Below, piece after piece: positions 17,265 through 48,998 of a DNA stretch of 64,000 nucleotides. This stretch comes from Panicum virgatum (taxonomy: Eukaryota; Streptophyta; Magnoliopsida; Poales; Poaceae). Under the pieces are notes generated by a model, which was not told the DNA's origin, searched no databases, and worked only from the letters and a program-made list of their open reading frames with translations. Numbering within the stretch: position 1 is the first letter of the stretch; each line of letters starts with the position of its first letter. Position numbers and translations under genes: made by a program. Where the stretch lies: assembly GCF_016808335.1 (NCBI RefSeq), contig NC_053150.1:28216030-28280029 (forward strand), in the 5' to 3' direction.

Positions 17265-17636
17265 TGTGGCAGCCCCGCCCGACATAAACCGGCTTAAGTG
17301 CGCTAACCATCATCAAAATGACAATCAGGGTTAACACGCACTTAAAACGGAGAAATCCGGCAGTGCTGTCGGGTAAATTCCCGATAAAACCACTTAAACC
17401 TGGATCGAACAAAGCAGCATCCCTCACGCGAAGGCGAGTCCAGAGATTACAACACGACACCAACAATTACAACACAGAGTTTAACGATCTGCAGTAATAC
17501 AAACCAAGTTCGACATTTAACAAAGTGCTTTGTACAACAACATAAAAGAAGTCCACCAGAGTTCTTTATTGCAGCGGAAAGTAAACACGTGAACTAACGA
17601 CGATATGGGTGTCACGATGAAGCCCGATTCGTGACA

Positions 17637-18834
17637 TCACTCGCTCTTGTCATCGTTGGCCGGGGACGGATCCCACTCCACGGACCAACCAGGCGGAAGG
17701 GTACAAGGCCAGGTTAAACTGGCAATCATGTCCTCAAAAGTATTTCCTGAAACAAAATGAGCCACAAGCAAGGCTGAGTATTCTAATACTCAGCAAGGCT
17801 TACCCGACTGAGGGTATACTTAGCCCTTTATCTAGACATGCAAGGCTTTTGGTTTGAGAGGTTTGTTTTGCCGAAAAGCAGTAAAGAGTAGATCCTTAAT
17901 TTCATATTTTAGCCTTCATGTTCTAGTTCAAATAACCATTCTAGGTGAGCATCTATCCAATAGCATCCATGGTGGAAACAATTATTTTTCATCAACCAAT
18001 CAACTATATTCATCATCATAATCATTCACTTCTTACTCTATGTGGCAAAAGGGTTAAGCAGTCCCAAACCGTGAGAAGCGGACGATTCGAATCGAATTTG
18101 TTAACCTGGCCAGGCAGACCTAAACACACGTCACGTGGTTACTCACAGAGTCACACGTGCAACATTTCCCTTCAATTCCCGCTTCACGGAACAGGCCCAC
18201 CGCCCTCAAGTACAGCAGTACGACGACTCTGTACTCGCCATTAGCCAGATGTGAACGAGTTCAAGACGGTGGGGAGTATATTCCGGCAGCGGTTCAATCC
18301 AGTACTTAAGCTTACCGATTACCATATTCTCGGCATGTGATTAGTACGTTCAAACGCTTAACCACCACTACCACACACTGCGGCCTTATCATTTTTCACT
18401 AAACAGACGGGGCATCCAGAGTATCACGACCCCGCCCGTAGACCTTATAGTGGTAGCAAGTAATAAACAACCAACCCCTATCATTTCTCGCGAGTGACCG
18501 GAAATCACTCGACTTCTACCGAACCTTTAGCATAGCTAACTAACGACCTGTACCAACTAGTGTTCAAGCATCGGTACCTAGGATTATGCAACTAAGGTTT
18601 CAGTCAACTCCTGTAACTTAAATGCACAAATAGATATGAACAATAATAAGTTGCATAATTTAAAATAGAGGGACATGCTCCGGGGCTTGCCTTCCTGGGC
18701 GTAACTGGATCTGGGCTCTTCCGAAATCGGGTTCGGGTCTTCAGTAACTTCAGTTAGATTCACCTGAGCTTCACGCTGCTCACTCTCGGACCCGGGCACC
18801 AGTTCGTAAGTTCCGTCAGCGAGAGTAGTAGTAT
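17637..18834 (-). CDS. Putative spliced LTR-encoded protein, C left LTR
   Basis: Two exons are proposed. Exon 18691-18834 follows the acceptor atttcatatag and ends gaag before a GC-type donor (GCAAGC). The last exon, 17637-17746, follows the acceptor tttcag and ends in TGA. Both junctions are phase 1, so joining keeps frame. The visible product is about 83 residues: DTTTLADGTYELVPGSES, then an acidic Glu-rich part (ISEEPRSSYAQE), then FEDMIASLTWPCTLPPGWSVEWD. Element D has the same exons, phases and a terminal exon of identical length (110 nt), with mostly synonymous changes. The upstream exon with the start codon was not found. No known domain was recognised; the role is unknown. Confidence 0.6.
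17773..17794. repeat. Perfect dyad near the LTR intron acceptor
   Basis: Arms GCTGAGTATT and AATACTCAGC around a 2-nt loop, 24 bp before the proposed acceptor of the last LTR exon. Also present at 27361-27382 (C right), 38322-38343 and 49504-49525 (D). Confidence 0.93.
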
Positions 18835-21059
18835 CTATATGAAATGCACATAAGTGAGTTGTTGTGATGGCAGTAATTAATGAATTATTTCATCATAAAA
18901 GCGTAAACCAATAAGACTCAAAACAGCAATAAACACTGTCATGTTTCTTCCATTGGGCAAACGTGTATAGAGTAGAAAATAATATTAGTTAGTGCATAAG
19001 TTCCGAGTGGAGTTTTCGTTATATACCAAAACATACAAAAGTGGCTTTCTTTAACAAAAATAACGATATCATGTTTTATCTAAAACTATAGTTACACATA
19101 GATTCTAAATCTCAAATTTTTGCAGAGGAGTCTACATATGATCCTCAACACACTTTAAATTTATCAGAAATTTTCTAGACGTAAAACAGGAGTAATAAAA
19201 TTGACAAATCCTACTCACATATAACAAGACTAATTAGTACAGATAGCTGCAAAGTGTTTTTGGCTCTAAAAATTTATATTCTAGCTTATCTTCTGAAGAC
19301 TAAGCCACAGTAAAATTTTCAGATTTTTCCAACAGCAACATCTATTTATCACAAAATAGCACCATTTTTAAGGATTAATTCACAGCGTTAGCTACACAAA
19401 TCTAAAAATAATGAAACTTGGACAGTGGTGTTCATTTAGTATTGTAAATATACATAAAAAGTTTCATACACAAATCTATATCATAACATCCAGAAATAAA
19501 AAGTAGATTATTCTACTAGATTTAGCCAAGACTATGGTTTCATCTAGTTACAAGTGTCAACTGGTGCTCAAATTTTTAAACAAAGCTAAACATGGCATGA
19601 AGTAGCTACTAGCCAAAAATCATCTATATACATTGAGTAGAACTCCTAGAATAAATATAGCCTATATAAACTAATCTTTTTCGTAGATTAAAATACAGAC
19701 AGAAAATAAATATGTGCAAGTAACAAAAGTTGTAGATCTTGTTGCAAGGATTCCAAAACATTTGGATTTGTATTTTTCTGATTTTTCTACGATTTTATTT
19801 CGAATTTACAAGTTTGCTGGTTTTGAAAACAAAAGAAAAAGGAAACGCAAACTTGCATCTAAGCCCCTGGAAGTTTGTTTCTTCTCAGCGTGGGTCCCTG
19901 GCGGACATTGGAGAACAGAGGAGGGTCGGGCGGCCGTTTTCCGGCGAGGAGAGGCTCCGGCGGTGGGGGAAAAGTTGGGGAAAAGGGAGAGGAGACTGAG
20001 CCGCACCTCTGGGTGTCCTTGGTTCGCGGGGAGGAGGTCCGAGGCGACGGCTCCGCGGAGAGGGGCGGCCGGCGGTGGACTGGGCTTGCGGCGGCGGCGT
20101 TCCGGCGGGCTTGGGCGGCGGCGCGTGGGTCGGGGAGTACCAGCGGAAGGTGAGGAAGCTAACTGCGGGGTCGAATGGGCGCGAGGGAGACCGGAGGAGG
20201 GAGCTCCGCGGGAGCCTATGGGGCGGCGGCGGCCATGGTGGCGGCAGCGGCCGTTCCAGGCGAAAGGGGGCGCGCGGAGCGGGGCTATCGAGCTCAGGAG
20301 GTGAGAAGGGAGGTCGGGGACGTCTCTGAGCTCGAGGGGAGGCTCTAGACGGTCAAGGCGCGAGGCGGGGGGCGAGGCACGGTCGTCGGGTCGTCACGGC
20401 GTCGCCGTGGCGCCTCGGCGGCCATCCTCGGCGTGCGCGCGGGGGATCGGCGACACGTGGAGAGGCCAAGAAGCTACGGGAGAGCTTGGGACGGGGCGCG
20501 GCGAGGAAGCGGCGCGTGGCCGGCGGCCTTGACCGGCGGCGACCACGGCTCAGCACAGAACATGGGAGGGAGGAAGAGAGAGAAAAGAGAGAGTATAGAG
20601 AGAGATTAAACTGATTCAAATTCAAATTTTCCTCAAAAAATCCTTTTGACACATGAAAAACTCCGAATACGAAAGTTGTAGAGAATTTAAAAACCTACAA
20701 CTTTTATTTCAGGAAAAAGTTTAATCGAGCAAAGGTTTAAAAGTTATTTTAAATTTTCGAAAACTATAAATCAAAACACTTATCATTTCATGTGATTTTC
20801 AACATTTGTACCCCTAGAGTTCAACTGGACATTTACCATTCTTTTCATGGTGAACATGTCTATAAATTTTCATCTGCAAGTTTGCCTTGGTGTGAAGTTA
20901 TTTGAGGTTCCTGACCTATGCACATATACACACATACATATGCACACACATAAGTTATTTTCCAAAAAGAAATGCATAATTTGAAATTCTCTTGTTTATT
21001 AAGCATGAAATCACGTTTAAGTTTTCTTGATTAGCATTTTAAAACTCTGAGATGTCACA

Positions 21060-21095
21060 GCCTACCCCCCTTAAAAAGAATCTCGTCCCGAGATT
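21060..21095 (-). promoter_or_regulatory. Element C polypurine tract and adjacent hairpin
   Basis: The minus strand reads AAGGGGGGTAGGC directly before the 3' LTR: the plus-strand priming site. Upstream is a dyad at 21079-21095 with arms AATCTCG and CGAGATT around 3 nt. The same arrangement occurs in element D. Confidence 0.9.
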
Positions 21096-21107
21096 CGAGT
21101 AACTAGG

Positions 21108-24100
21108 CTAAGTGTGGAAGGTTTGTGTACCTTGGAGAGAAGCTAGAAAACCACGGTAATGTTCATTCAGATAGGTTTCAGTTTCCCAAGTGGCTTCTTC
21201 TTCTGTGTGATGACTCCACTGGATTTTGTACATTTTAATTACTTTTCTTCTCGTTACTCTTTCTTTCCGATCCAGAACTTTGATAGGGTATTCCACATAG
21301 GAAAGGTCCCGTTCCACTCGTATATCCTCTTGTTCGACAATCTCCGTGGGAACTCGGACACATTTCTTAAGCTGAGAAACATGGAATATGTCGTGTATGG
21401 CGGATAGTTGTGGAGGAAGTCTCAATCTATAGGCCACGGGTCCACAAATTTCTATGATTTCATAGGGACCAACATACCGGGGAGCTAGTTTTCCTTTCAC
21501 TCCAAATCTTTGTACACCCCTGGTTGGGGAAACCCGAAGGTATACATGATTTCCAACTTCGAATTGCAAGGGATCTCTTCTTTTGTCGAAATAGCTCTTT
21601 TGCCTAGATTGTGCCGCCTTAAGATTTGCTTGGATTACCCTCACTTTTTCTTCTGCCTCAGTTACAAGATCAGGTCCAAATACTACTCGTTCTCCGACTT
21701 GCGACCAGCTCAAAGGAGTACGACACCTTCGACCATACAAGGCCTCAAAGGGTGCCATTTTCAAACTTTCTTGATAGCTATTGTTGTACGAGAATTCTGC
21801 TAGAGATAAACACTTATCCCAACTCTTGTCAAAGTGAATGACACAAGCCCTCAACATGTCTTCTAAAATTTGGTTTACTCTCTCTGTTTGTCCATCGGTT
21901 TGAGGATGATAAGCTGAGCTTCGAATCAGTTTGGTACCAAGAGATGCTTGCAATTGTTCCCAAAAGCGTGCTGTGAATTGAGTACCACGATCAGAAATGA
22001 TTGTTTTGGGTACGCCATGTAGGCAAACAATGCGATCGAGATAAATCTCGGCATATTTCTTGACCGTATAGGTAGTATGCACCGGAATAAAATGCGCCGT
22101 CTTTGTGAGCCTATCCACGATAACCCAAATGGAGTCGTGCTTTTGGGACGTGTTTGGCAATCCAACAATGAAATCCATACCTATGTCTTCCCATTTCCAA
22201 GATGGGATAGACAAAGGTTGAAGAGGGCCGGCTACCTTCAAGTGGCTGGCTTTTACTCGCCGACAGGTATCACATTCAGAAACATACTTAGCAATTTCTC
22301 TTTTCATCCTAGTCCACCAGAAGTTTTGTCTAAGATCTTGATACATTTTGTTACTGCCTGGATGAATGGAGAACTTGGAAAGGTGTGCCTCATTGAGTAT
22401 TTGCTTTCGTAGCTCATGATTCTTTGGAACGACTATGCGGCTCTCGAACCATAGAATTCCATTGTGGTCTTGGCGGAAACATTTATATTTCTCTTCCCCT
22501 TGGGAGAGCTTCTGCTTGATGATGTTAATACCTTCATCATGTAGTTGCGCCATGATAATTTGATCGTGAAGGGTTGGTTCAATGGAAATGTAGTTTAAAG
22601 TGCCTTGGGGAATCATTTCCAAATTGAGTCTTCTCATTTCAGAGCACAGTGTCTGGTCATAAGATTCCACAGCTAGGCAATTACAATGAGTTTTGCGGCT
22701 TAATGCATCCGCGACTACATTGGCCTTGCCCGGATGGTAATGCACCTCGAGATCGTAGTCTTTGATTAATTCCAACCATCTTCTTTGTCTCATATTTAGA
22801 TCGGCTTGAGTGAAGATATATTTGAGACTCTTATGGTCTGTGTAGATATTGCAATGAGTGCCCATCAGATAGTGTCTCCAAATCTTTAGAGCATGAATGA
22901 CGGCTGCTAACTCGAGGTCATGAGTAGGATAGTTCTGCTCATGTGGCCGAAGAGATCGTGAAGCATAGGCAATGACTCTATTGTCTTGCATGAGCACACA
23001 ACCAAGACCCGTACCCGACGCGTCACAATACACGTCAAAGGGCTTGGCATTATCAGGTTGAGCTAGGACAGGGGCCTTAGTCAGCAACTCCCTTAGAGTG
23101 TGGAAAGCTTTCTCACATCTTTCATCCCAGACAAATTTGATTCCTTTCTTCAACAGTCCGGTCATAGGCTTAGCAATTTTTGAAAAGTCCGGAATGAAAC
23201 GACGATAATATCCAGCTAGCCCAAGAAAACTGCGAATCTGATGAACGGAAGCAGGAGATTTCCAGTCCATCACTTCTTGCACCTTACTAGGATCAACGGC
23301 TATGCCTTCACTGGATATAGTGTGACCCAAAAATTTCACCCTGTCTAACCAGAATTCACATTTGGAAAACTTAGCGTACAACTGATGATCTCTAAGACGT
23401 TGAAGAACGATGCGCAAGTGTTTGGCATGGTCCTCCTCATTCTTGGAATAAACAAGGATGTCGTCAATGAAAACCACGACAAACTTGTCAAGATCAGGCA
23501 TGAACACCGAATTCATAAGGTACATGAAATAGGCAGGTGCATTTGTGAGGCCAAAGGACATGACTAAATATTCATATAGTCCATATCTTGTAGAGAAGGC
23601 GGTTTTAGGAATATCACAGGGTCGGATTTTGATCTGATGATATCCAGAGCGAAGATCCAACTTTGAAAACACCCTAGCTCCAGCCAATTGATCAAATAAA
23701 ACATCAATGCGGGGGAGAGGATATTTATTTTTGATTGTCACCGCATTGAGAGGCCGGTAGTCCACACACAACCTCAAACTATCATCTTTTTTCTTCACAA
23801 ATAGGGCCGGACAACCCCAAGGTGATGCACTAGGGCGAATGAAACCTTTGTCAAGAAGTTCTTGAAGTTGAATCTTTAATTCGGCCAATTCCTTAGGTGG
23901 CATTCTATAGGACCTCTTTGAAATAGGTGCAGTGCCTGGCTGCAATTCAATAACAAACTCTATGTCCCTATCCGGTGGCATTCCTGGCAAGTCATCCGGA
24001 AAAACATCGGCAAACTCGCATACCACTGGGATTTCTTCTAATCTGGATCCGCTCATGGCATATGCACAAGAATTTGTGCACTCTGGGGAGGGTAAATAAA

Positions 24101-25568
24101 GAGTAGTGGCTCCTTGGGTTGGAGAGTTTATTTCAACGGCTCGGGAAGGAATGTCTAGGGTTACTCCATGTCGAGTCATCCAATCCATTCCCAAAATAAC
24201 ATCCAAACCTTCCAGTCCTAAGATGACAAGATCACTGTTGATGATTTTACTACCCAGCTTGATTGGCACAAGGCGTATCATTTGATTAGAAGCAACTTTA
24301 CCACCGGGTGTTGATATCATGTATGATCCCTTCGTATGACAGAAATCAAATCCCATTTTTGCACCAAATTTTGCACTAATGAAACTATGTGATGCACCGG
24401 TATCAAATAATATCACTGTAGGCTTGTGATGGATAGAAAATGTACCCGTCATTACTGGCGCTCCTTCCGGCAGTTCTGCAAGAGTGGTGAAGTTGACTCG
24501 ACCTTGCTTGACCTGAATAGTCTGCCTTCTTCCCTTGTTCTGGTTGCTTTGAGTAGACCCTTGACCCTGGTTTTGTTTCTTAGGCTGCGGACACTCTCGG
24601 GCAAAATGAGTTGAACTCCCACAGTTGAAGCAACGATTTTTATCGCCTAGACGGGCTGGTGGTGGGGCAAATGGTCTAGGACCAGTTAGCTGAGGAACAG
24701 GAGGTCGCATCTCACCCTGTTGTTGCGGCAGCCTAAAAACCCAACGCCCTGGCTGAGGGGCCTTCTGAGGAATTGTAGGAGAAACATTCTGCACGAAACG
24801 ATACCTCGGTGACTGAGCACTCGAGGGTCCAGGTGGAGCCTTCCGCTTCTTCTCAGCACGATGAGCCACAATGCAATCCTCTTGGGTAATGGCCAGATTA
24901 ACCAACTCATTGTATGTATCGACTTTAATGGGGTTCAGACGTTCTTTGAGTTTAGTATTGAGTCCTCTGCGGAAGCGGTCACGCTTCTTAATATCTGTGT
25001 CAGCGTGATAGCCCGCGTACTGACAAAGACCATTGAAAGCTTGGGCATATTGGATAACCGTACGAGTCCCTTGAGTAAGAGCCAGGAACTCATTCAGTTT
25101 CCTTTCCATAAGACCTTCTGGAATATGGTGACCCCTAAATGCATCCTTGAATTCATTCCAAGTGACAATATGATCAGCCGGGAGCATGCCATGGTAGTTA
25201 TCCCACCAAAGACGCGCAGAACCGCGAAGCTGTTGTGCGGCAAAGAGAGTCTTATTTCCCTCCGAACATGGCACTGGAAGTAGTGCAAACTTGGACTCGA
25301 TTGTGCGAATCCAAGCATCCGCATCCAGTGGTTCTTCTGTCTTGTGGAACAGAGGAGGCTGGGTTGCAAAGAAATCCTGATAACCAGCAGCTTGAGGTTG
25401 ATGGGCGTGGTGTCCACCTCGCTGCTGCCCTTGGACAAGTTGGCGAAGCAACTCAGTCTGGGCGGCCAGGACTTCCGCAATGCCTGGTGGTGGGGGTGGC
25501 GGTTGCTGCGATCCGCTACCACTCGCGTTCACAAAACCCTCCGGATTGCCACGCGTAGATCCCACCAT
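21108..25568 (-). CDS. Element C gag-pol polyprotein, intact
   Basis: One frame of 1486 codons from the ATG at 25566-25568 ([12 protein letters not shown]). I chose this over an ATG 29 codons upstream because it follows CAG directly and matches the gag start of element D. Domains: gag about 80-240; zinc knuckle [14 protein letters not shown] 313-326; protease DTGAS 389-393; RT with VDYRPLNAV near 602-610 and FIDD 700-703; RNase H starting near [10 protein letters not shown]; integrase zinc region ([11 protein letters not shown]), core with SDRGTQF and GQTERVNQI; chromodomain near the C-terminus ([12 protein letters not shown] to EEATWETE). All catalytic residues I can check are present. It supplies particle, cDNA synthesis and integration, and may mobilise defective relatives. 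Confidence 0.97.
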
Positions 25569-26838
25569 CTGGAACATGCAAAAACTCTTTTGTGAGCAAG
25601 TAATATACAATGCCCCAAAATACAAAAGAGTAATGCAGATAAATGAAACTTGCATGAATTATATAACATCATGGACAAAAGGTTGTTCGTTTCAAGATCA
25701 GCTCTTGACAGCAGAGGGGTATTTTAACATTCTACTCAAGCACTTCGGCAAATAAAGTCCTTTGCTGAGTCCGGTAACTTCCTATATCCAGACACGGCAG
25801 ACAGAACAGAGTCTAGATAGACCTTAATCGTGAACAAAAATATCATGTGCTCAGGTGCAAACCTTAGTATTTCCCTATTACCCCATGTACTTTTATTGAT
25901 TTCCAGATTAAGATCATGATGCATGCACGACCTATTCGTCCTCACAAAACAAACAACTGCCAAATAGCTTTGGACTTACGGGGTTAGTGCCGGTAGCATA
26001 GCACAAAGTTACGTCTCTCCCTATATATGTCTAGCCGAATTCTAACCGTTCTTATCTTAACGAAATCGCGGTTAGTGTACCTGCAAAAGATGCATAGCAT
26101 GTATATATATGAATATTCATGACTGGACCCTTCGTGCCAGCACTCACGAACGGCCCCCATGTGTCCTACGCCACATGGGTAACGCATATGCAGTTGCCCA
26201 CATATTCACCCATACATTGCCATTCACTATAGAAACGGCAGCCATACAATTTTCCGCCGTATGGCCAACGTTAACATACGCTACCGAGATAGCGTATTCA
26301 CGAGTTCCTTTACTCCCAATATAATCGTCTGATGGTCGATATATTGGCAGCAGCTCAAGTAGGCCACTGCTTGAGCACAGCGTTCGGTTCGCATCACCGA
26401 CGGGAAGGTCAGACTCCCTCAGCTGACTGAGTATACTTTACTCCCAATATAGTCAACTGATAGTTGGTATATTGGCAGCACCTCAAGTATGCCATTGCTT
26501 GAGGGCAACGTTCGGCTCGCATCACCGATGGGAAGGTCAGACTCCCTCAGCTGACTGAGGATCCTTACCTCCTTACCTTAGCGTAGGTGCGTCGTTACAG
26601 AATTCAAGGGTTGATTGTGCACAAAATAAGGTCTGACAGAAGGTAAAGTGCTGGAAGCCAGGTACACACAGACATAAGTTAGATAGCCACCTAATAACTT
26701 CCCATAATTTCCCTAGGGCTTTACGAACTAGGCACCATCCTTAACGAACCAACGTATTTTGCAAACGCAATTGTTATGGCCAAATTTAATGAAAATCCTT
26801 CAAAAACTCGTCACAACCTCTGGTGCACGCTTTGTTCG
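25569..26838 (-). other. Element C leader: structured 5' untranslated region
   Basis: 1.27 kb between primer site and gag, with no convincing ORF. It contains a hairpin with arms CTAACCG/CGGTTAG (26042-26048 and 26069-26075), one with TTCGTG/CACGAA (26131-26136 and 26145-26150), one with GCCATAC/GTATGGC near 26240-26270, and a tandem duplication at 26308-26562. All recur in element D's leader. The 3' end, gtttttgcatgttccag, directly before the gag ATG, resembles a 3' splice site. Confidence 0.85.
26308..26562 (-). repeat. 128-bp tandem duplication in the element C leader
   Basis: Unit 1 starts at 26308 and unit 2 at 26436, both with ctttactcccaatata. Each unit holds three small dyads: CCAATATA/TATATTGG, CTCAAG/CTTGAG and CTCAG/CTGAG. 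Element D has the equivalent pair at 48462 and 48589. Confidence 0.95.
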
Positions 26839-26850
26839 GCTCTGATACCA
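26839..26850 (-). promoter_or_regulatory. Element C primer binding site (tRNA-iMet)
   Basis: The minus strand reads TGGTATCAGAGC, 2 nt from the 5' LTR; complementary to plant initiator tRNA-Met. Confidence 0.97.
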
Positions 26851-26852
26851 GC

Positions 26853-29800
26853 TGTGGCAGCCCCGCCCGACATAAACCGGCTTAAGTGCGCTAACCATCA
26901 TCAAAATGACAATCAGGGTTAACACGCACTTAAAACGGAGAAATCCGGCAGTGCTGTCGGGTAAATTCCCGATAAAACCACTTAAACCTGGATCGAACAA
27001 AGCAGCATCCCTCACGCGAAGGCGAGTCCAGAGATTACAACACGACACCAACAATTACAACACAGAGTTTAACGATCTGCAGTAATACAAACCAAGTTCG
27101 ACATTTAACAAAGTGCTTTGTACAACAACATAAAAGAAGTCCACCAGAGTTCTTTATTGCAGCGGAAAGTAAACACGTGAACTAACGACGATATGGGTGT
27201 CACGATGAAGCCCGATTCGTGACATCACTCGCTCTTGTCATCGTTGGCCGGGGACGGATCCCACTCCACGGACCAACCAGGCGGAAGGGTACAAGGCCAG
27301 GTTAAACTGGCAATCATGTCCTCAAAAGTATTTCCTGAAACAAAATGAGCCACAAGCAAGGCTGAGTATTCTAATACTCAGCAAGGCTTACCCGACTGAG
27401 GGTATACTTAGCCCTTTATCTAGACATGCAAGGCTTTTGGTTTGAGAGGTTTGTTTTGCCGAAAAGCAGTAAAGAGTAGATCCTTAATTTCATATTTTAG
27501 CCTTCATGTTCTAGTTCAAATAACCATTCTAGGTGAGCATCTATCCAATAGCATCCATGGTGGAAACAATTATTTTTCATCAACCAATCAACTATATTCA
27601 TCATCATAATCATTCACTTCTTACTCTATGTGGCAAAAGGGTTAAGCAGTCCCAAACCGTGAGAAGCGGACGATTCGAATCGAATTTGTTAACCTGGCCA
27701 GGCAGACCTAAACACACGTCACGTGGTTACTCACAGAGTCACACGTGCAACATTTCCCTTCAATTCCCGCTTCACGGAACAGGCCCACCGCCCTCAAGTA
27801 CAGCAGTACGACGACTCTGTACTCGCCATTAGCCAGATGTGAACGAGTTCAAGACGGTGGGGAGTATATTCCGGCAGCGGTTCAATCCAGTACTTAAGCT
27901 TACCGATTACCATATTCTCGGCATGTGATTAGTACGTTCAAACGCTTAACCACCACTACCACACACTGCGGCCTTATCATTTTTCACTAAACAGACGGGG
28001 CATCCAGAGTATCACGACCCCGCCCGTAGACCTTATAGTGGTAGCAAGTAATAAACAACCAACCCCTATCATTTCTCGCGAGTGACCGGAAATCACTCGA
28101 CTTCTACCGAACCTTTAGCATAGCTAACTAACGACCTGTACCAACTAGTGTTCAAGCATCGGTACCTAGGATTATGCAACTAAGGTTTCAGTCAACTCCT
28201 GTAACTTAAATGCACAAATAGATATGAACAATAATAAGTTGCATAATTTAAAATAGAGGGACATGCTCCGGGGCTTGCCTTCCTGGGCGTAACTGGATCT
28301 GGGCTCTTCCGAAATCGGGTTCGGGTCTTCAGTAACTTCAGTTAGATTCACCTGAGCTTCACGCTGCTCACTCTCGGACCCGGGCACCAGTTCGTAAGTT
28401 CCGTCAGCGAGAGTAGTAGTATCTATATGAAATGCACATAAGTGAGTTGTTGTGATGGCAGTAATTAATGAATTATTTCATCATAAAAGCGTAAACCAAT
28501 AAGACTCAAAACAGCAATAAACACTGTCATGTTTCTTCCATTGGGCAAACGTGTATAGAGTAGAAATAATATTAGTTAGTGCATAAGTTCCGAGTGGAGT
28601 TTTCGTTATATACCAAAACATACAAAAGTGGCTTTCTTTAACAAAAATAACGATATCATGTTTTATCTAAAACTATAGTTACACATAGATTCTAAATCTC
28701 AAATTTTTGCAGAGGAGTCTACATATGATCCTCAACACACTTTAAATTTATCAGAAATTTTCTAGACGTAAAACAGGAGTAATAAAATTGACAAATCCTA
28801 CTCACATATAACAAGACTAATTAGTACAGATAGCTGCAAAGTGTTTTTGGCTCTAAAAATTTATATTCTAGCTTATCTTCTGAAGACTAAGCCACAGTAA
28901 AATTTTCAGATTTTTCCAACAGCAACATCTATTTATCACAAAATAGCACCATTTTTAAGGATTAATTCACAGCATTAGCTACACAAATCTAAAAATAATG
29001 AAACTTGGACAGTGGTGTTCATTTAGTATTGTAAATATACATAAAAAGTTTCATACACAAATCTATATCATAACATCCAGAAATAAAAAGTAGATTATTC
29101 TACTAGATTTAGCCAAGACTATGGTTTCATCTAGTTACAAGTGTCAACTGGTGCTCAAATTTTTAAACAAAGCTAAACATGGCATGAAGTAGCTACTAGC
29201 CAAAAATCATCTATATACATTGAGTAGAACTCCTAGAATAAATATAGCCTATATAAACTAATCTTTTTCGTAGATTAAAATACAGACAGAAAATAAATAT
29301 GTGCAAGTAACAAAAGTTGTAGATCTTGTTGCAAGGATTCCAAAACATTTGGATTTGTATTTTTCTGATTTTTCTACGATTTTATTTCGAATTTACAAGT
29401 TTGCTGGTTTTGAAAACAAAAGAAAAAGGAAACGCAAACTTGCATCTAAGCCCCTGGAAGTTTGTTTCTTCTCAGCGTGGGTCCCTGGCGGACATTGGAG
29501 AACAGAGGAGGGTCGGGCGGCCGTTTTCCGGCGAGGAGAGGCTCCGGCGGTGGGGGAAAAGTTGGGGAAAAGGGAGAGGAGACTGAGCCGCACCTCTGGG
29601 TGTCCTTGGTTCGCGGGGAGGAGGTCCGAGGCGACGGCCTCCGCGGAGAGGGGCGGCCGGCGGTGGACTGGGCTTGCGGCGGCGGCGTTCCGGCGGGCTT
29701 GGGCGGGGCGGCGCGTGGGTCGGGGAGTACCAGCGGAAGGTGAGGAAGCTAACTGCGGGGTCGAATGGGCGCGAGGGAGACCGGAGGAGGGAGCTCCGCG

Positions 29801-30652
29801 GGAGCCTATGGGGCGGCGGCGGCCATGGTGGCGGGCAGCGGGCCGTTCCAGGCGAAAGGGGGCGCGCGGAGCGGGGCTATCGAGCTCAGGAGGTGAGAAG
29901 GGAGGTCGGGGACGTCTCTGAGCTCGAGGGGAGGCTCTAGACGGTCAAGGCGCGAGGCGGGGGCGAGGCACGGTCGTCGGGTCGTCACGGCGTCGCCGTG
30001 GCGCCTCGGCGGCCATCCTCGGCTGTGCGCGCGGGGGATCGGCGACACGTGGAGAGGCCAAGAAGCTACGGGAGAGCTTGGACGGGGCGCGGCGAGGAGG
30101 AAGCGGGCGTGGCCGGCGGCCTTGACCGGCGGCGACCACGGCTCAGCACAGAACATGGGAGGGAGGAAGAAGAGAGAGAAAAGAGAGAGTATAGAGAGAG
30201 ATTAAACTGATTCAAATTCAAATTTTCCTCAAAAAATCCTTTTGACACATGAAAAACTCCGAATACGAAAGTTGTAGAGAATTTAAAAACCTACAACTTT
30301 TATTTCAGGAAAAAGTTAATCGAGCAAAGGTTTAAAAGTTATTTTAAATTTTCGAAAACTATAAATCAAAACACTTATCATTTCATGTGATTTTCAACAT
30401 TTGTACCCCTAGAGTTCAACTGGACATTTACCATTCTTTTCATGGTGAACATGTCTATAAATTTTCATCTGCAAGTTTGCCTTGGTGTGAAGTTATTTGA
30501 GGTTCCTGACCTATGCACATATACACACATACATATGCACACACATAAGTTATTTTCCAAAAGAAATGCATAATTTGAAATTCTCTGTTTATTAAGCATG
30601 AAATCACGTTTAAGTTTTCTTGATTAGCATTTTAAAACTCTGAGATGTCACA
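26853..30652 (-). repeat. Element C 5' LTR (right copy)
   Basis: 3800 bp, from tgtggcagcc at 26853 to gatgtcaca ending at 30652, nearly identical to the left copy. Differences are almost all single-base indels in G, A or T runs, most in the GC-rich block. This copy would drive transcription of the element. Confidence 0.97.
27225..28422 (-). CDS. Putative spliced LTR-encoded protein, C right LTR
   Basis: Second copy of the LTR-encoded ORF, with exons 28279-28422 and 27225-27334. I see no difference from the left copy in coding or splice-site bases. This copy lies in the 5' LTR, so if transcription starts near the GC-rich block the exons would be in the 5' part of every full-length RNA, upstream of gag. 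The start-codon exon is not identified. Function unknown. Confidence 0.6.
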
Positions 30653-36709: not shown

Positions 36710-37817
36710 TCACTGCGCGGCAGTCGGGCGGGACCTTTTCGGTTTGGGTTCGGCCGTCGAAGATCCGACCTCCCCCTGGCGCTTACCCAATACGCTAGGC
36801 GGGGGCCACAAACCTTGCGGCACTCCAAGGACCGTGGTGGCCGTAGAAGAGGATGGGGAGGACGAAGCTCCGCGTCCGGTCTCGGGGACTAGGCGCTGGT
36901 TGGCCGCGGTGGCCCTGGGAGCGGCACGTCTTTTACCCCTGCGCCGGCGGACGAGCTGATGGTCGGGCCGCTGAAGCAAGCGGTCGCGCCTTGCGATGGA
37001 GGGGAACAGTGATTGCTTCCATGACCGGGGGTCCCAGCGAGATCCCAGCGCTGATCCCTTCTCCATCCTCCTGCAACAAAGCCCAATCAATATGCTCCTC
37101 ACGGTCATGGTCGTCGTCGTCGTTGGCACTCCAGTCGGGCTCCTCGGGAGACTCGGTGTCACTGTCCACCTGCTCGCTGCACCTCCTACGCTGCTAGCGC
37201 TCTGCCCGATGGGTCTGCTGGGCAATATTCCATTTCCGCTTGTCATCTTTCTTCCTCTTCTTCTTATCGGCGGCGGTGTGGTTCATTGCCCATCGGGCCG
37301 CATCCCCAAGTGAGGGAGCGCGGGAGAGGCGAAAGCCGTATCCATCCTATGAGCGTAAGGCGGAACTCCCAAAGCCAAACGGTTCGACAAGCAAAGAGAA
37401 AAGGAAGAAAGGTGCTAGGAAAGAGCACTTACGAATCGGACGAACCCCACCTCCGGGCGCATCACCGGATGGCTGGGGATGGGGAACACGGGGTACGGCT
37501 TGTTGAAGGCCTCCCGGAGCCGCAAGGTGATCTCAGCGTCACTGATCTCGCCGACCGCCAACACCGTCCGCGCGACCGCATCCGCCAGCGCGTCGAGCCT
37601 CATCTCGTCCAACGGAAGCGCTCGCGCCATTATCGGTGCAACCCGCCGCTTATGGTAAGCGCCCACCACACCGGCGCCAGTCAAGCCCTGACTCTTTAGA
37701 ATCCTAATGGCGTCTAGGAGGCCGGAGAGCTTCTCCTGTTCCTCCTTTTCCGGGCCATACTCCCACACGGGCGGTTTGTCCATCAGGAATCGGCCGGAGA
37801 AGGCGGGCAGGGGAGCT
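36710..37817 (-). pseudogene. PF04195-like transposon protein, C-terminal part
   Basis: On the minus strand the frame 37817-37415 continues the gene cut by element D: LPAFSGRFLMDKPPVWEYGP and LPLDEMRLDALADAV. It reaches a possible donor (GTAAGT) near 37428. Further blocks to 36710 are acidic then basic (SPEEPDWSANDDDDHDREE, later KPKRSR) with frame changes. The N-terminal part is at 52389-52883. This family is annotated as 'putative gypsy type transposon'; its biochemical role is unknown. Confidence 0.65.
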
Positions 37818-40800
37818 GTGGCAGAACCGCCTAAATTATCCCGGCTCAAGTGCGCAGGCCATCACCATAAAGGCAACATTAGCTTAAACGCACTTCAAAC
37901 GGAACAATTTTTGGTCTGTCGGGTAACGTCCCGATACAACCACCGATTCTCGGATCGAACAAGCATACCCCGCACGAAGGCGAGTTCAGAGATATTACAA
38001 CCACAATTTTACAACACGGGCATAGTAAAGATTACAAACCAGTTCAAACGATTATTACAAAACCAACTTAAGTAAAAAAAGTTATACAAGCCATAAGTGT
38101 AAAGCTTCAGGGTTTAAACAGCGGAAGATAAAACACGACGGCTACAACATGTCGCAAAAAGGATACCAGGCTAGCCCAAGCATGGTATCACTCGTCATAG
38201 TCATTGCCGGTCGAAGACGTATCCCACTCTACGGACCAGCCAGGAGGCAACGAGCAAGGATAGGTCAAGCTAGCGATCTGATCCTCAAAACTCATACCTG
38301 AAAAAGGGTTTCAACAGCAAGGCTGAGTATTCTAATACTCAGCAAGACTTAACCGCCAACGGGTATAAGTAGCCCACCTTAGCTAGACTATGCAAGGCTT
38401 TGTGAGGCTCTGGTTTTCTTTTGCTGAAAAGCAATAAAGAGTATGTCCTTACTTTCAAGTTTTAGCTTTCAAGATTCTAGTTGATTAACCATTCTATGTA
38501 AGCAACTACTATCAAATCATGGTAGAAATCTAAGCAAACATCAAGATTGATTAAAGTGTTGTTGCTCTTCTTACTCTGTGTGGCAAAGAGATCAAGCAGT
38601 CTCATTTCATCGTGAGAGGCGGACGATTCTGAATCGAAATTCAACCTTGCAAGGATAACCTAGCACACACGTCTGGAACACCGTCGGGTCATTCCCAAAC
38701 AACCGTTGACCTTTCTTTCCGGCTTGTGGATAGGGTCACTCTCCCCGACTACAGGGCTCCAAGGCCGAACCTTGTCCCTTGAAGTCATGGTGTTGCGCAA
38801 CATAACAATAAAACCTATCCCTACTGAGAGAGTGAAAGGTATATCCACTCCCCGGTCCAATCGGCTACTAGGCTTGCCGCGTACCATATTTACGGCATGT
38901 GGCTAGTACTTTCAAAAACTTAACCAGCACTACCACACACCGCGACCTTAGCAAGTTCATCAATACAGACGGGGTCTCACATAAAGTCATGATGTCGAAC
39001 ACAACCCCGTCTGTTGTCCTTATATTGATAACAGAAAGGTAAACAATCAATTCCTATAAAACTCGCGAGTGACAGGCAATCACTCGACTTTTACCGGTCC
39101 TATAAGCTTAGCAAGTAGTCGAACTCAAGTCTAGTATTCAGTACATAGGTTCCTAGGATCATGCATCTAGGGTTTCAATTCAAATCCTAAGAACTGTAAA
39201 TGCATAAGCAAATAACAACCGTAAATGATAATAATTTGAAATATAGGTTATGTCTGGGGCTTGCCTTCTCGATAGTTGCTAACTATTTCAGCCCTAGGCT
39301 CTTCCGAACTTTGGTCCGGGGCTTCAGTTAGTTCAGCAGTGTTTACTTGAGCTTCGAGATCACCTCCGTCAGACTCCGGTATCAGCTCGTACGTCCCGTC
39401 CGATAAGGCAGTCGTGTCTACATGTAATGCAAGAACAGTATTATAAGCACACATGGGCAATCGTTTATAGAGTAGTTAAATAACAAATTTAACTACACAA
39501 GGCATCATGATCAACAGCACAATAGAAGTTGACTAACTTCATGAACAAGTGGGGGTGGATTCCTATAGCAATTACTTCCATGTTTGCAAATAAACATATA
39601 ACTCAAAGTACAAACAGTAATTAACTTACCAAAAATTACCCTAAACAGAACATGAACAGATTAAGCTACCCTGTAAAAATCATGCCAAGACATGTAGCCA
39701 TTTAATCACAACAAATCATTCATGCAGGCAGCACATAGAACAAACTTCAATTATACAGGTCAAACTAAAGCAAAACAGAATCTAAAAATTTAACAGTAGG
39801 TCAATACAGAAATAAACTAGCAACTGTGAATTTTTCATGATTTTATCTATACAGAAATAAATACAAAAAAATAAACAAAACAGACAACAGATTAGCAAGA
39901 TTTATTTTTAGCCCCTGATCTAGCCATGAACTGAAGCTCAAACTTCCTCGACAAGCTAAGATAATCCAGGTGAACACTCAGGAATAAATTCAGGATTTAT
40001 CAAGAACAGAAACTATTTATCATAACTAAAGTCTACTAAACAAAGATTAAATCAAATAAATAGCTAAACCAAAGAACTGATCATGAAATTTTTATAGAAA
40101 AACAAGTGTTACAAGAGTAAACTACCATAAAAGTTTCACTGCAAGACATGGCTTTATGCAGTAGTTAAGAAAAAGATGAAATCAACCAATATTTATGCAC
40201 TAGAAACACAAATCAAAATCTACAGCAAAAACTTGCAACTAAAGCCTAACATATTATGGTTCTACTGCATAGATCTCTTCAAGAGGATTCGAAAACATCA
40301 AGATTTGCTATTTTACGAATTTTCTACGAATTGATATTGAATTTCAAAGTTCACTGAAAATCATAGCAAAGAAGTCCCTATAGCACTATTCAAATGTGTC
40401 ACTGACTACGCAGATAACCCCCTGGGGTTTTTCAAATTCAAACACCGACGTCCCTGGCCGGGTCAGAGAGGGAAGGCGGGGTTTGACCGGCCGTTTCCCG
40501 GCGAGGAGCTCACCGGCGGCGAGGGGTGGGTTGGGGAAAACGGAGAGGAAGTCGAGGCGGTTCTGGGGATGTGCTTGGGTCGCGAAACGAGGGCGAGAAT
40601 AGGTCGGTCCACGGCGAACGGCGGCTGGTGGAGCTCGGAGCACGGCGGCGGGGTGTCTCCGGTGAAGTTCGGGCGAGGGGAGATGGTCTAGGAGTTGCGC
40701 GAGGGCGAGGCGGTGCTTGCTAGGGTGTCAGAGCGGGCGGAGGAGCGGCGGTGAGACGGCTCCGCGGCGGGGGTAAGCTCGCCGGGGTTCAAGCGGGGCG

Positions 40801-41646
40801 GCGGCGGCGTTCTGTGGTGTGAGAGCGAGGAGAGGGCAAAGGAACGCACGAAATCGAGTCCTGGGGTATGTGTAGTGCTCGGGCGCTCGCTAGAAGAGGG
40901 CGGCGAGCTCTGCCCGGGGCTGTCCACGGCGGCGTCGCGGTGGCGGCCGTCGAGGCGGCTCTGGAAGCTGCGGGGCGCGTGGCACGGGAAGAAGAGGGCC
41001 AGCGCGAGGCTAGAGGGCGGTGGAGGAGGTCGTCCGCGACGCGTGGGTGCCAGCGCGCGGCGAATTAATGGCCGGAATGGCCGGGAAGGCGCCGGCGAGC
41101 GGCGCTGTCGGTGGACGGCGACGAGAAGCAGAGCAGGGAGGTGGGAGATGGGGATAAGGGCGATTTTGCAATTTCCAAAAATTCCAGGGACTAAACTGTA
41201 AACCAGCGATAACTTTTAAACCAAAGCTCAAATGGAAAAGTGCCCAACATGAAAGTTGTTCAACTTTTCAAGATCTACAACTTTGATGTTGTGCAAAAAT
41301 TTATTTAGCCAAAGATTCAAGAGCTAAAATTAAAATCATTGAAGGGATTTTGAATTCTAGGAAATTTGTCTTTTTCAAAGCAAATTCACTTCAAACATAG
41401 ACTTAAAAGTAAATTTTTCTGCCAAGCATTAAATGCACTGAAATTTTGCAAAAACATCCTCCACAAAAGCTATATTCAGAAATAACTAAAGAAAGGACCT
41501 TGCATAAAATCATAATTACACATATAGCCTTTTATAATTACAAAAAGATCCTTTTTAAGCAATTCATGCACATGACGCATAGCAAACATACACAATTACT
41601 GTGCAGACACCTATTTAATTACTGTGTAGACACCCAGGGTGTTACA
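37818..41646 (-). repeat. Element D 3' LTR (left copy, full length)
   Basis: 3829 bp, tgtggcagaacc to gggtgttaca; on the minus strand it starts TGTAACACCCTGGG. It has the same gene-like order as LTR C, with a GC-rich block at about 40440-41200. Bases 39894-40338 are missing from the right copy. Confidence 0.96.
38188..39417 (-). CDS. Putative spliced LTR-encoded protein, D left LTR
   Basis: Exon 39265-39417 (153 nt, after acceptor attacatgtag, ending gaag before GC donor GCAAGC) and terminal exon 38188-38297 (110 nt, after acceptor tttttcag, ending TGA). Both junctions are phase 1. The product shows DTTALSDGTYELIPES, EAQVNTAELTEAPD, SSEEPR, then FEDQIASLTYPCSLPPGWSVEWD. Compared with element C, in the first 25 terminal-exon codons I count about 10 synonymous-only and 5 replacement differences. 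That bias and the shared phases argue for a real protein. The first exon was not found and function is unknown. Confidence 0.6.
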
Positions 41647-41681
41647 GCCTTCCCCCCTAAAAGGAATCTCGTCCCGAGATT
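41647..41681 (-). promoter_or_regulatory. Element D polypurine tract and adjacent hairpin
   Basis: The minus strand reads TTTTAGGGGGGAAGGC up to the 3' LTR. The dyad with arms AATCTCG/CGAGATT (41665-41681) directly precedes it. The stop codon of pol is the TAG inside this tract. Confidence 0.9.
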
Positions 41682-44600
41682 ACAGGAAGAAAAGGATTCA
41701 AAGACTTGGTACCTGGATTGGTTCTAAGAAAATCGTGAAAGTTTCGTTGGAGAAAATTTTCAGTCTCCCAAGTAGCTTCTTCTACAGTATGCTGATTCCA
41801 CTGGATTTTGTACATTTTAACTTTCTCCCTTCTAGTACTTCTTTCTTTGGTGTCAAGAATCTTGATTGGATACTCCGTATAAGATAGATCGGATTCAATC
41901 TCGATATCCTGTGGTTCAAGGATCTCAGTAGGTACCCTGGTACACTTCTGGAGTTGTGATACATGAAAGACATCATGAATGGCAGCCAACTGAGATGGAA
42001 GACGAAGTCGGTAGGCAACGGGTCCACAAGTTTCGATAATTTCAAATGGTCCGATGTATCGGGGTGCTAATTTCCCTTTTACGCCAAAGCGTTGAACACC
42101 TTTAGTAGGAGATACTCGCAAATATACGAAGTTCCCTACCTCGAATTGTAAAGGATCTCTTCTTTTGTCTGCATAAGTTTTCTGTCTTGATTGAGCTGCT
42201 TTAAGATTAACTTGGATAACTTTGACTTTCTCCTCTGCCTCAGAGACTAAATCTGGCCCAAAAATTTTGCGTTCTCCAGCTTGTGACCAATTCAAAGGAG
42301 TTCGACACCTTCGACCGTATAATGCTTCAAATGGTGCCATTTGCAAGCTGGATTGATAACTGTTATTATATGAAAACTCTGCCAGTGCTAGGCATTTAAC
42401 CCAGTTCTTGCCATATTGAATAGTACATGCCCTTAACATGTCTTCAAGGATTTGATTGATTCGTTCAGTTTGCCCATCTGTTTGTGGATGATAAGCTGAA
42501 CTACGAATTAGTTTTGTTCCAAGGGATTCTTGCATTTGCTCCCAGAAACGTGCAATAAACTGAGGCCCACGATCAGAAATAATCGTCTTTGGAATTCCAT
42601 GTAAACGAACAATCTGATCGAGATAAATCTCTGCGTACCTCTTGGCAGAATAAGTGGTGTGTACTGGAATAAAATGAGCAGTCTTGGTGAGTCTATCAAC
42701 GATTACCCAAACAGAATCATGCTTATGAGAAGTAGTGGGTAGGCCAACGATAAAATCCATACTGATGTCCTCCCATTTCCAGGATGGAATGGGTAAAGGT
42801 TGGAGAGTACCAGCTACTTTTAAGTGACTAGCCTTAACTCTTTGACAGACATCACATTCAGAAACATATCTGGCAATTTCTCTTTTCATTCGAGTCCACC
42901 AGAAGTTTTGTTTAAGATCGTGGTACATCTTGGTACCACCGGGATGAATCGAAAACTTCGATAGATGTGCTTCATCAAGGATTTGCTTTCTAAGCTGATG
43001 ATCCTTGGGTACAACTAGTCGAGATTCAAACCATAGAACTCCTCTATGATCCACTCGGAAACATTTGTACTTTGCTTCTCCTTGTGATAACTTTTCCTTG
43101 ATGATCTTGATACCCTCATCATGTAATTGTGCCATGATGATGCTATCATGAAGTGTAGGCTCAAGGGATATATGGTTCAAACTTCCTTGAGGTACCATTT
43201 CTAGGTTTAACTTCATCATTTCCTGGCATAGAGTTTCATTGAATGGTTCTACAGATAGACAATGGCATTGTGACTTGCGGCTTAGTGCATCCGCAACCAC
43301 ATTAGCCTTTCCTGGATGATAGTGCACTTCTAGATCATAATCCTTTATCAACTCTAGCCAGCGCCACTGTCTCATGTTGAGATCAGCTTGAGTGAAGATA
43401 TATTTGAGGCTCTTATGGTCAGTGTAAATATTACAGTGAGTTCCCATAAGATGATGTCTCCAAATCTTGAGGGCGTGAATAACAGCTGCTAACTCCAGAT
43501 CATGTGTTGGATAATTCTTCTCATGATTCCGGAGAGCTCTTGATGCATAAGCAATAACCCGGTTATCTTGCATAAGCACACAACCAAGTCCCATACCAGA
43601 AGCATCTCAATAGACATCAAAAGGTTTGGTACTGTCCGGTGTAGCCAATACTGGAGCAGTAGTTAATCGTGCCTTGAGAGTTTGGAAAGCTTCTTCACAC
43701 TTATCATTCCAAACAAACTTCACTCCCTTCTTCAATAGCTCCGTCATAGGCTTGGCTATTTTGGAGAAATCCGTAATGAACCGACGATAATATCCAGCTA
43801 AACCAAGAAAACTACGAATTTGATGAACTGAAATAGGAGATTCCCAATCCATCACTTCTTGCACTTTAGTTGAATCAACAGATATTCCATCACTGGAGAT
43901 AGTGTGGCCTAAAAATTTCACACTGTCTAACCAAAAGTCACACTTGGAGAATTTGGCATAAAGATGGTGATCTCGTAATCGTTGAAGAACGATATGCAAA
44001 TGCTCAGCATGATCTTCTTCATTCTTGGAGTAGATCAGAATATCGTCAATGAATACCACGACGAATTTATCCAGCTCCGGCATGAAGACTGAATTCATCA
44101 AGTACATAAAATATGCTGGGGTGTTGGTAAGACCAAAAGACATGACCAGATACTCATAGAGTCCATATCTGGTCGAGAAAGCAGTCTTTGGAATATCACA
44201 AGGCTTGATCTTTATTTGATGGTAACCAGAACGAAGATCAATCTTAGAGAAAACCTTAGCTCCAGCTAACTGGTCAAACAGAATATCAATGCGGGGAAGA
44301 GGATACTTATTTCTAATAGTGACCGCATTGAGTGGTCGATAGTCAACACATAGCCTCAAGCTGTTATCCTTCTTCTTCACAAACAGGGCTGGACATCCCC
44401 AGGGTGAAGAACTCGAACGTATAAATCCCTTGTCGAGAAGGTCTTGGAGTTGGACTTTCAATTCTGCTAACTCATTTGGAGGCATTCGGTACGACCTCTT
44501 AGAAATAGGGGCGGTACCGGGTTGAAGCTCAATAACAAACTCGATATCTCTATCAGGGGGCATTCCAGGCAAATCATCTGGAAATACATCCTCATACACC

Positions 44601-46180
44601 CACACAACAGGATATCTTCAAGTTTAATTTCTTTTGCGGCATAGGCACAAGAGTTAAAGCACTCTCGTTGTGGTAGATAGAGTATGGTGGCTCCTTGATG
44701 TGGTGAATCTATCTCAATAGCTCGGGAAGAGATATCTAATAGTACTTTATGTTTAGTCATCCAATCCATGCCCAGAATAACATCCATGCCTTCTAAATTC
44801 ATTAAGATCAAATCTGTCTTGATCAATTTACTACCCAGCTTAATTGGCACATGTCTAGTGATTTGATTGGAAGCTATCTTCCCACCAGGAGTTGTTATCA
44901 TAAAAGATCCCTTAGTATGACAAAAGTCCAATCCTACCCTTGCTCCAAATTTGGCACTTATAAAACTATGCGTTGCACCAGAATCAAATAATATGACTGC
45001 GGGTTTATTGTGGATAGAGAAAGTACCCGTCATTACTGGTGCTCCTTCTGGAAGGTCTGCAAGAGTAGTGAAGTTAACTCGCCCTTGCCGGACTTGCACC
45101 ATTTGTCTCTTGCCCTTGCCCTTGTTGTTGTTCTGGTTGGAGTTTTGCCCTAGATTATTTCTTCTGGGCTGCGGACAATTCTTGGCAAAGTGAGAAGTAC
45201 TACCGCAGTTGAAGCATCGATTATTACCATTCCCACTATTGAACCGTGGGGCATTCGGCCTTGGGCTAAATTGCTGCTAATGCTGCTGCTGCTGAGGCAC
45301 TGGAGGTCTGAATCCTCCTTGTTGCTGAGGCGGCCTAAAGACAAACCTGCCCACTGGGGCATTTCTTTGTGGAGGCCTGGGTGGAGTGTTTTGCACTAGA
45401 CGATATCTCGGTGGCTGGGCACTCGAGGGTCCCGTTGGTGCCTTCCGCTTCTTCTCAGCACGATGTGCAGCAATACAGTCCTCTTGCGTAATGGCCATAT
45501 TAACCAGCTCATTATAGGTATTAGGCTGAACCAAGTTTAAACGTTCCTTGAGCTTGGTATTGAGGCCACGACGGAAACGATCACGTTTCTTGGCATCAGT
45601 ATCAGCATGATGGCCCGCATACTGGCATAGATGATTGAAGGTCTGTGCATATTGTAGAACAATGCAGGTTCCCTGATCTAGAGCCAAGAACTCATTCAAC
45701 TTTCTTTCAATTAGTCCCTCAGGAATATGATGTGATCAGAAGGCAGTTCTGAATTCCTCCCAAGATATAATATGTTCAGCAGGCTGCATTGCACAATAAT
45801 TATCCCACCATATACGTGCAAGACCACGAAGTTGCTGAGCGGCAAAGTGGGCCTTGTTTGCATCAACACACGGTACTGCTAACAAAGCAAACTTGGAATT
45901 GATTGTACGGAGCCAAGCATCGGCGTCCAGTGGGTCATCAGCTTTGCTGAAAAGCGGAGGTTGGGTACCAAAGAATTCCTGGTAACCCGCTGGTTGTGCC
46001 TCACGTCCTCAATACTGTTGGCGTGGCTGATTTTGTTGCCCTTGGACTAGTTGGCGAAGTAATTCTGTTTGCATGTCCATTAACTCGGCCAGATTTCGAC
46101 GGGGGTGGCGGTGGCTGCTGAGATCCACTGCCAACTTCACAACCGAAGCCATTAGGCGTTCCACGAGTATGACCAACCAT
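41657..46180 (-). pseudogene. Element D gag-pol (broken)
   Basis: Collinear with the intact polyprotein of element C. It starts at 46178-46180 (MVGHTRGTPNGF, after CAG). Lesions: a frameshift near 46095, TGA at 46009, TGA near 45735 (an Arg position in C), TAG near 45274, a frameshift near 44605 and TGA at 43605 (a Cys position in C, after PFDVY). Otherwise the protease (FDSGATHSFIS), RT (FIDD), RNase H, integrase ([16 protein letters not shown]) and chromodomain are well preserved. The C-terminus reads through to a TAG within the polypurine tract. Not functional without suppression. Confidence 0.95.
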
Positions 46181-46769
46181 CTGTAATTATGGAAGACATC
46201 CATTAGATACATATTTCTCGCTTCCAAAATCAATGGTACTTGCAATGATCATACATTGGATAAAACAAAATCAGCAAAATTTAACTAGATGCGGTGTAGC
46301 ACAATATGCACAACACATAACTGTGCCACCCACAAAAATCAAAACTGGTCAGCTGTTAGATAGCTTCATGCTCCATCGTATAGAGACTCAATGCTGAGAG
46401 CAAAGGGTAAAGAAAATAATCTATCAATTCGTTCTTCATCGCTATGTGCTATGCTGCTAAACAACAGAGATCATAGAAGGGATTGGACTAAAATTTATTC
46501 TCACAGATTCAACAGGCTAACATATGATGAGCACACATGCCACAAAATTTGCAACATCTTTAGTATTCATCAAACGGCGTGAAAATGCACAAATGAAGAG
46601 ATTTGGTAGGTAGGAAGATCATGATTTCCAAACTGGTAGTCGTTACTTATTTCACATCCAAAGCAGCATTTTTCTTACAACCTAACATCACTCACCCTTA
46701 CCACATATAATACAACAAGTGGTACTCCTCCCTAGGGCTATCTTACAACATCTCTTTCCTATGTACAAG

Positions 46770-47716: not shown

Positions 47717-47719
47717 CTG

Positions 47720-48984: not shown

Positions 48985-48996
48985 GCTCTGATACCA
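48985..48996 (-). promoter_or_regulatory. Element D primer binding site (tRNA-iMet)
   Basis: The minus strand reads TGGTATCAGAGC, 2 nt from the 5' LTR. Confidence 0.97.
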
Positions 48997-48998
48997 GC

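Follow-up and report, generated by a model that had tools for sequence, protein, structure and literature searches.

The stretch analysed here (the window) comprises 64,000 nucleotides of the Panicum virgatum genome and holds two complete LTR retrotransposons, elements C and D, with LTRs of about 3.8 kb (the 5′ LTR of D being 445 nt shorter). A putative two-exon gene can be read in each of the four LTRs. The features are as follows.

17265..30652, reverse strand: element C, complete, with LTRs and the 5-bp target-site duplication TCGGC
21108-25658: open gag-pol frame of element C, 1516 aa
17565..17570, reverse strand: AATAAA of C, possible polyadenylation signal, 66 nt past the stop
17637..17746, reverse strand: C 3′ LTR, terminal exon 2, 110 nt, FEDMIASLTWPCTLPPGWSVEWD...E-stop
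17747..18690, reverse strand: C 3′ LTR, GC-AG intron, 944 nt
18691..18834, reverse strand: C 3′ LTR, exon 1, 144 nt, with ATATAG before it and the GC donor after it
27225..27334, reverse strand: C 5′ LTR, exon 2, peptide identical to that of the 3′ LTR copy
27335..28278, reverse strand: C 5′ LTR, GC-AG intron, 944 nt
28279..28422, reverse strand: C 5′ LTR, exon 1, peptide identical to that of the 3′ LTR copy
37817..52383, reverse strand: element D, complete, with LTRs and the 5-bp duplication GGAGC
38188..38297, reverse strand: D 3′ LTR, terminal exon 2, 110 nt
38298..39264, reverse strand: D 3′ LTR, GC-AG intron, 967 nt
39265..39417, reverse strand: D 3′ LTR, exon 1, 153 nt
49370..49479, reverse strand: D 5′ LTR, exon 2
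49480..50446, reverse strand: D 5′ LTR, GC-AG intron, 967 nt
50447..50599, reverse strand: D 5′ LTR, exon 1
18954..18974 (C) and 39454-39474 (D), reverse strand: TATA-like motif TACTCTATACACGTTTGCCCA, its core present in 22/22 LTRs read

Pfam located Retrotrans_gag (residues 139-235), RVP_2 (383-511), RVT_1 (621-781), RT_RNaseH (870-968), Integrase_H2C2 (1080-1137) and rve (1161-1252, slightly under the cut-off) on the 1516-residue frame of C. The resulting order of gag, protease, reverse transcriptase, RNase H and integrase is that of Ty3/gypsy elements, and the LTR pair, primer site and target-site duplication of such elements were also found, the primer-site sequence TGGTATCAGAGC, which we take to be that of tRNA-Met, standing after the 5′ LTR. 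The gag-pol region of D consists of several shorter open frames. The LTRs of C are 99.5% identical, and C is young on that account; those of D are 98.6-99.4% identical (two blocks). A Chromo match lies in the expected place of the C frame (residues 1460-1500, E 0.0018) but scores 18.6 bits against a cut-off of 25.1, for which reason we call the elements only probable chromoviruses. Their long LTRs and layout are presumably those of the Tekay/Del clade, so that they are probably Ty3/gypsy chromoviruses of this clade. By first-look, unverified candidate counts in the genome (6971 for C, 5106 for D and 14889 for P0004, a database protein described below, as query) the family is high-copy.

The leader between the primer site and gag (26336-26619 in C, 48489-48772 in D) is 90% identical between the two elements, against about 75% for gag-pol; it holds a tandem repeat of about 128 nt and adjoins two tandem splice donors (AAG/GTAAGRAG/GTAAGG), and the likely gag ATG of C (25568) is immediately 3′ of CCAG. 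This arrangement is suggestive of an intron in the leader together with a packaging-type element, as known from retroviruses. Related copies were encountered elsewhere, namely one C-type and two D-type exon regions of 99-100% identity at G000:C15:30.32-30.34 Mb, about 2.1 Mb from the window, which represent a segmental or assembly duplication. The whole LTR at locus L045 is a mosaic of a C-type exon region and an AT-rich, D-like upstream part (75% over 1034 nt), and a D-like LTR fragment on the opposite strand of the window (58971-60901, forward strand) loses its similarity before exon 1.

The first-pass annotation had read two exons in all four LTRs, with a GC-type donor, defined acceptors, a phase-1 junction, a last exon of 110 nt and, in C, a downstream AATAAA, and all of these were borne out when the coordinates were re-read. 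In 4/4 LTRs, NTAG precedes exon 1, the donor reads GAAG/GCAAGCCC, the acceptor reads TTTCAG/G, the junction is in phase 1 and the 110-nt exon 2 ends in a TGA stop. The D LTR in the window has no AATAAA within 330 nt past the stop, where TTGTAA sites only were seen. The C peptide runs TTTLADGTYELVPGSES...EEPRSSYAQEG in exon 1 and NTFEDMIASLTWPCTLPPGWSVEWDPSPANDDKSE-stop in exon 2; the joined peptides of C and D are 61% identical, exon 2 (67%) more so than exon 1 (56%).

Copies were scored from the best 40 of 6971 candidates for C, the best 40 of 5106 for D and the best 150 of 14889 for P0004 (153 matches), the latter providing a third group, F (exon 1 from 9 of 10 loci, plus L059); whole LTRs were read for the four window LTRs, 12 C copies and 8 D copies only. 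Over 83 aligned codons (plus 4 gapped), C and D share 27 identical codons and differ by synonymous changes only in 24 and by replacements in 32. The earlier tally of 18 synonymous-only to 9 replacement differences over 41 codons came from a favourable subset, while the selection read from it holds. The 81 nucleotide differences over these 83 codons change the residue in 32 codons, where the null gives 47.8 on average, and counts as low as those observed arose in 0/2000 substitution shuffles for C-D, 0/2000 for C-L061 and 11/2000 for D-L061; for the close pair C-L045 the test was not significant (345/2000). Per site, pS is 0.59 and pN 0.26 between groups C and D. Using 18 of the 22 aligned rows (L042, L056, L059 and L069 were left out), dN/dS was 0.27 (C-D), 0.28 (C-F) and 0.31 (D-F) between groups and 0.26, 0.29 and 0.21 inside groups C, F and D, respectively; a dN/dS near 1, in combination with missing spliced reads, had been named at the outset as a sign against the gene, and all six group comparisons lie at 0.21-0.31. 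In the two pairs tested (C-D and D-L067), pS was well above pN in the proposed frame only, the shifted frames having no synonymous excess. Exon 2 alone gave no selection signal in group D (pS 0.021, pN 0.018).

Insertions and deletions follow the same frame. Relative to the D reference, 0 of 7 indels in exon 1 of the 22 aligned rows break the frame and exon 2 has no indels at all, against 45/64 frame-breaking indels in the 60 nt upstream, 259/308 in the intron and 47/49 in the 80 nt downstream (counted per row, a shared event once in each; the figures for exon 2, the intron and the downstream stretch exclude L059 and L069). Frequent frame-breaking indels in young, active copies had likewise been named as a sign against the gene, and none shifts the frame in either exon of 38 C and D loci (8 C and 30 D, including the window's own four copies and the near-identical ones 2.1 Mb away). 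Among these loci, 34 have the GCAAGC donor, 4 an in-frame stop and 2 a lost acceptor AG; in the 22 aligned rows the donor is kept in 20, and stops occur in L056 and L063, the latter also without the acceptor AG. Raw divergence across the 30 D loci is 3.97% in exon 1, 2.78% in the intron and 1.58% in exon 2, by which measure the exons are not better kept than the intron; since loci were picked by similarity to the exon stretch, the intron conservation within families is biased. Judged by its substitution and indel patterns, the proposed frame is coding and under purifying selection. Four copies, L030, L031, L037 and L027, have a changed donor (GC to AC in three, to CC in one), with the exons open in three and a stop in L031, and are possibly a sub-lineage lacking this splice.

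The first-pass annotation had also asked for a protein search with the joined peptide. The C/D peptide matched 1839 proteins at E ≤1 from 1848 candidates. Nearly all of the 120 matches listed have exon 1 continuing into the intron (EGKPRT), and four proteins among them (P0001, P0003, P0004 and P0007; 12 member sequences on 7 contigs) pass from exon 1 to exon 2 at the exact predicted GC-AG junction. A search with the end of exon 2 retrieved 35 proteins, 3 joined and 32 unjoined. JGI was the only source for 4/4 joined against 4/32 unjoined proteins (Fisher p 0.0012, post hoc); JGI data include metatranscriptomes. A degenerate junction pattern, which fits the in-silico joined exons of all four LTRs and which a joined copy changed at its fixed positions would escape, had 11 exact matches in the 1.13 Gb genome (627 contigs), none of them a joined copy of the LTR gene and all encoding a different sequence, EG-(I/T)-(D/G)-FED-(A/T/S)-FA. 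Likewise, 55 of 69 loci carry the unspliced form and 0 the joined form. Locus L059, considered as a joined copy, was rejected, as it has a shortened intron with both splice sites present. Because no joined copy was found in the genome, the joined proteins probably derive from spliced RNA; they may come from another species. The N terminus of P0001 is a close match to the LTR sequence ahead of exon 1 at locus L043, which indicates an LTR, rather than a host gene, as the source of P0001. The earlier claim of a conserved, spliced and selected protein gene in these LTRs is thus supported by independent copies, by a dN/dS specific to the proposed frame, by the distribution of indels and by proteins that span the junction.

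Other database entries showed further arrangements. In P0002, P0005 and P0006 an exon-1 segment is duplicated in tandem and in frame, and in P0152, whose longest contig is 11.8 kb, an exon-2-like stretch without the usual stop runs into a basic frame (ARRARNRARAVRRRR), which may reflect a fusion in a different species. Viral contigs gave 158 pattern matches, of which 0 were confirmed.

The 5′ boundary of the coding sequence was examined in the LTR copies. The frame is respected only from the NTAG before exon 1 onward, NTAG is kept in 22/22 copies and in 10/10 third-group copies, and from 14 nt before exon 1 onward C again resembles L059, and L043 again resembles D. The kept NTAG and the frame boundary support the first acceptor as earlier read, but the joined proteins do not share in its use, P0001 and P0003 clearly and P0004 probably reading through it unspliced and P0007 not reaching it. 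An upstream coding exon, for which the first-pass annotation had asked, was not found in the LTR copies. No start codon is conserved; an in-frame ATG leads straight into exon 1 in 11/22 copies and in 3/10 of the third group. Several candidates were rejected, namely an extended coding exon farther upstream, in the GC-rich LTR portion (16-56% divergence per 100-nt window, in a profile biased by the choice of loci for similarity to the exon stretch, and no 3-base rhythm by eye), a donor-like column in D (CGCCG/GTGAGC in 7/9 copies, GA or GC in the others, with the preceding frame not kept), an upstream C-D blastp match (E 5e-10, low-complexity) and a start supplied by gag (no strong gag-pol donor is common to C and D). 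A search for longer proteins with exon 1 gave 2 matches of 21 candidates, one consisting of the intron and exon 2 and the other of the C-terminal end only, and the N terminus of P0004 found nothing convincing in the window.

A start farther upstream would be sought if RNA from the 5′ LTR were spliced from the leader donors (26576/26568) to the acceptor before exon 1 of the 3′ LTR and then through the GC-AG splice, as for MMTV Sag, a precedent described in the portion of PMC3026287 considered here. The C internal region of 5.8 kb has 3 sites that score above 4 bits by a donor matrix, and the two in the leader, though not the third, are strong in D as well; the frame, kept only from the NTAG acceptor onward, and the presence of NTAG in 22/22 and 10/10 copies also speak for this route. 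Against this, a stop lies at most 2 codons before both leader donors, in C and in D, in the frame entering exon 1, so the leader could not supply the start codon and a leader-supplied start was rejected; moreover, use of the acceptor in front of exon 1 is not seen in the joined database proteins. We regard this route as unlikely.

The exons specify a product of 84-87 aa with a pI of 4.05 (19-21 D/E, 2-3 K/R) and, at the C terminus, the conserved core FEDxIASLTxPCxLPPGWSVEWD. With P0001, P0003 and P0004 as queries, no Pfam family attained its cut-off, P0001 had no match in the PDB at E up to 10, and an AlphaFold model from four sequences had a mean pLDDT of 35.7 and no confident fold; the product is perhaps disordered. 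A WW domain, whose start LPPGWSVEW resembles, was rejected, P0004 matching positions 1-13 of 31 (E 0.2, 12.2 bits against a cut-off of 26.9). A partner-binding accessory protein would be the most economical reading of these properties, and perhaps, with the chances about even, the product regulates element expression or RNA fate.

A small product with no confident fold would also suit a conserved-peptide upstream ORF, in which the spliced exons of the 5′ LTR would lie in the leader and the nascent peptide would control gag translation without acting as a free protein. The 5′ LTR exons do stand upstream of gag on the same strand, and exon 2, before the stop, is the better conserved of the two. 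The last residues before the stop, however, differ among groups, which is not known of typical arrest peptides; exon 1 is constrained too (C-D pS 0.61, pN 0.28), and the AUG that an upstream ORF needs is not conserved. This explanation appears improbable.

Divergence of the intron is lower than that of synonymous sites (0.316 against 0.593 for C-D; 0.101 against 0.360 for D-F), a constraint beyond what the gene model explains. The intron (17747-18690; 38298-39264) holds hairpins visible by eye, such as GCTGAGTATTAGAATACTCAGC, and alifold (15 windows, 60 shuffles each) gave z -3.9 at one hairpin and its lowest value, z -4.7, in a poorly aligned stretch; Rfam had no match in the window at gathering scores. 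The intron itself is probably functional; splicing control, export, packaging and strand transfer are processes in which it may take part. That there is no protein gene, the region being conserved as RNA or regulatory sequence with an incidental open frame and splice-like sites, would fit the intron constraint and the alifold windows (to z -4.7, the lowest in a poorly aligned stretch) but is highly implausible against the frame-specific dN/dS, the lack of frame-breaking exon indels amid many around them and the exon-joined proteins.

We consider it likely that elements C and D carry an accessory protein gene that is LTR-borne and spliced, the carrier being a probable chromovirus and the layout similar to that of MMTV sag. 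The gene, read in the direction of gag-pol, would be contained entirely in the LTR, with the LTR promoter on one side of it and the LTR polyadenylation site on the other, probably in the R region; it would stand at both ends of the full-length RNA and twice per element, with a spliced RNA as the source of its product. Nearly all copies read retain the GC donor, and GT was found in none. Such a kept donor would hold splicing inefficient, and we propose that unspliced RNA thereby stays available as the template for reverse transcription and that the LTR in this way keeps its intron. The small acidic product would most likely bind a partner protein and so regulate the element's own expression or RNA fate, a role that we put forward as a proposal.

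The TATA-like motif TACTCTATAAACGATTGCCCA, with close variants, is present in 22/22 LTRs and in L059, 57-149 nt before exon 1, and forms an isolated 30-nt match between C and D of the window. If this motif acts as the promoter, the exons and intron would form the R region. An extended form of the accessory-gene reading, which we hold as tentative and rather doubtful, is that the LTR is a self-contained gene with promoter, coding exons, weak GC-AG intron and polyadenylation site in one repeat. Every LTR, solo LTRs included, would then be a potential expression unit, and splicing in the R region would choose between a short mRNA for an accessory regulator and a full-length RNA that can serve for reverse transcription. 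Spliced RNA could not then give rise to new LTRs, as it would lack the intron.

Parts of this layout have parallels in known systems. MMTV sag is an accessory protein gene in a long 3′ LTR with a splice acceptor before it, according to the sections of PMC3026287 consulted, and shares with the LTR gene an accessory protein inside unusually long LTRs that is expressed through splicing. In C and D, by contrast, the host is a plant element and the coding sequence is split by an intron in the LTR with a GC donor; the likeness is one of layout, and the LTR gene is not filed as a sag member. In CRM group A chromoviruses, also plant elements with protein coding inside the LTR, the coding region reaches into the 3′ LTR as the end of the polyprotein (CR motif) running on from pol, as described in the sections used of PMC3059260, whereas the LTR gene has a frame to itself some 2.2 kb into the LTR, complete with intron and stop. 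The additional ORFs of plant LTR retrotransposons (env-like, Grande gene23, RIRE2, Retand) are likewise extra conserved genes without assigned function, but they are located internally, most of them between pol and the 3′ LTR, and none is described inside an LTR in the sections of PMC7264820 considered. Ogre, in the excerpt used of PMC6317226, is a plant Ty3/gypsy element with partial splicing of its own RNA, as we propose for C and D.

No published report of the LTR gene was found in the open-licence literature, peptide motifs included, although this says little about whether one exists. The LTRs of plants are generally regarded as regulatory sequence, and solo LTRs as inactive remnants. That a high-copy family carries a spliced gene under selection in its LTRs suggests a need of the element for the protein. 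Gene searches confined to the region between the LTRs would miss such a gene. The LTR gene provides a candidate accessory factor in plant Ty3/gypsy elements, and one may ask in turn how an intron can persist within the LTR of a retroelement.
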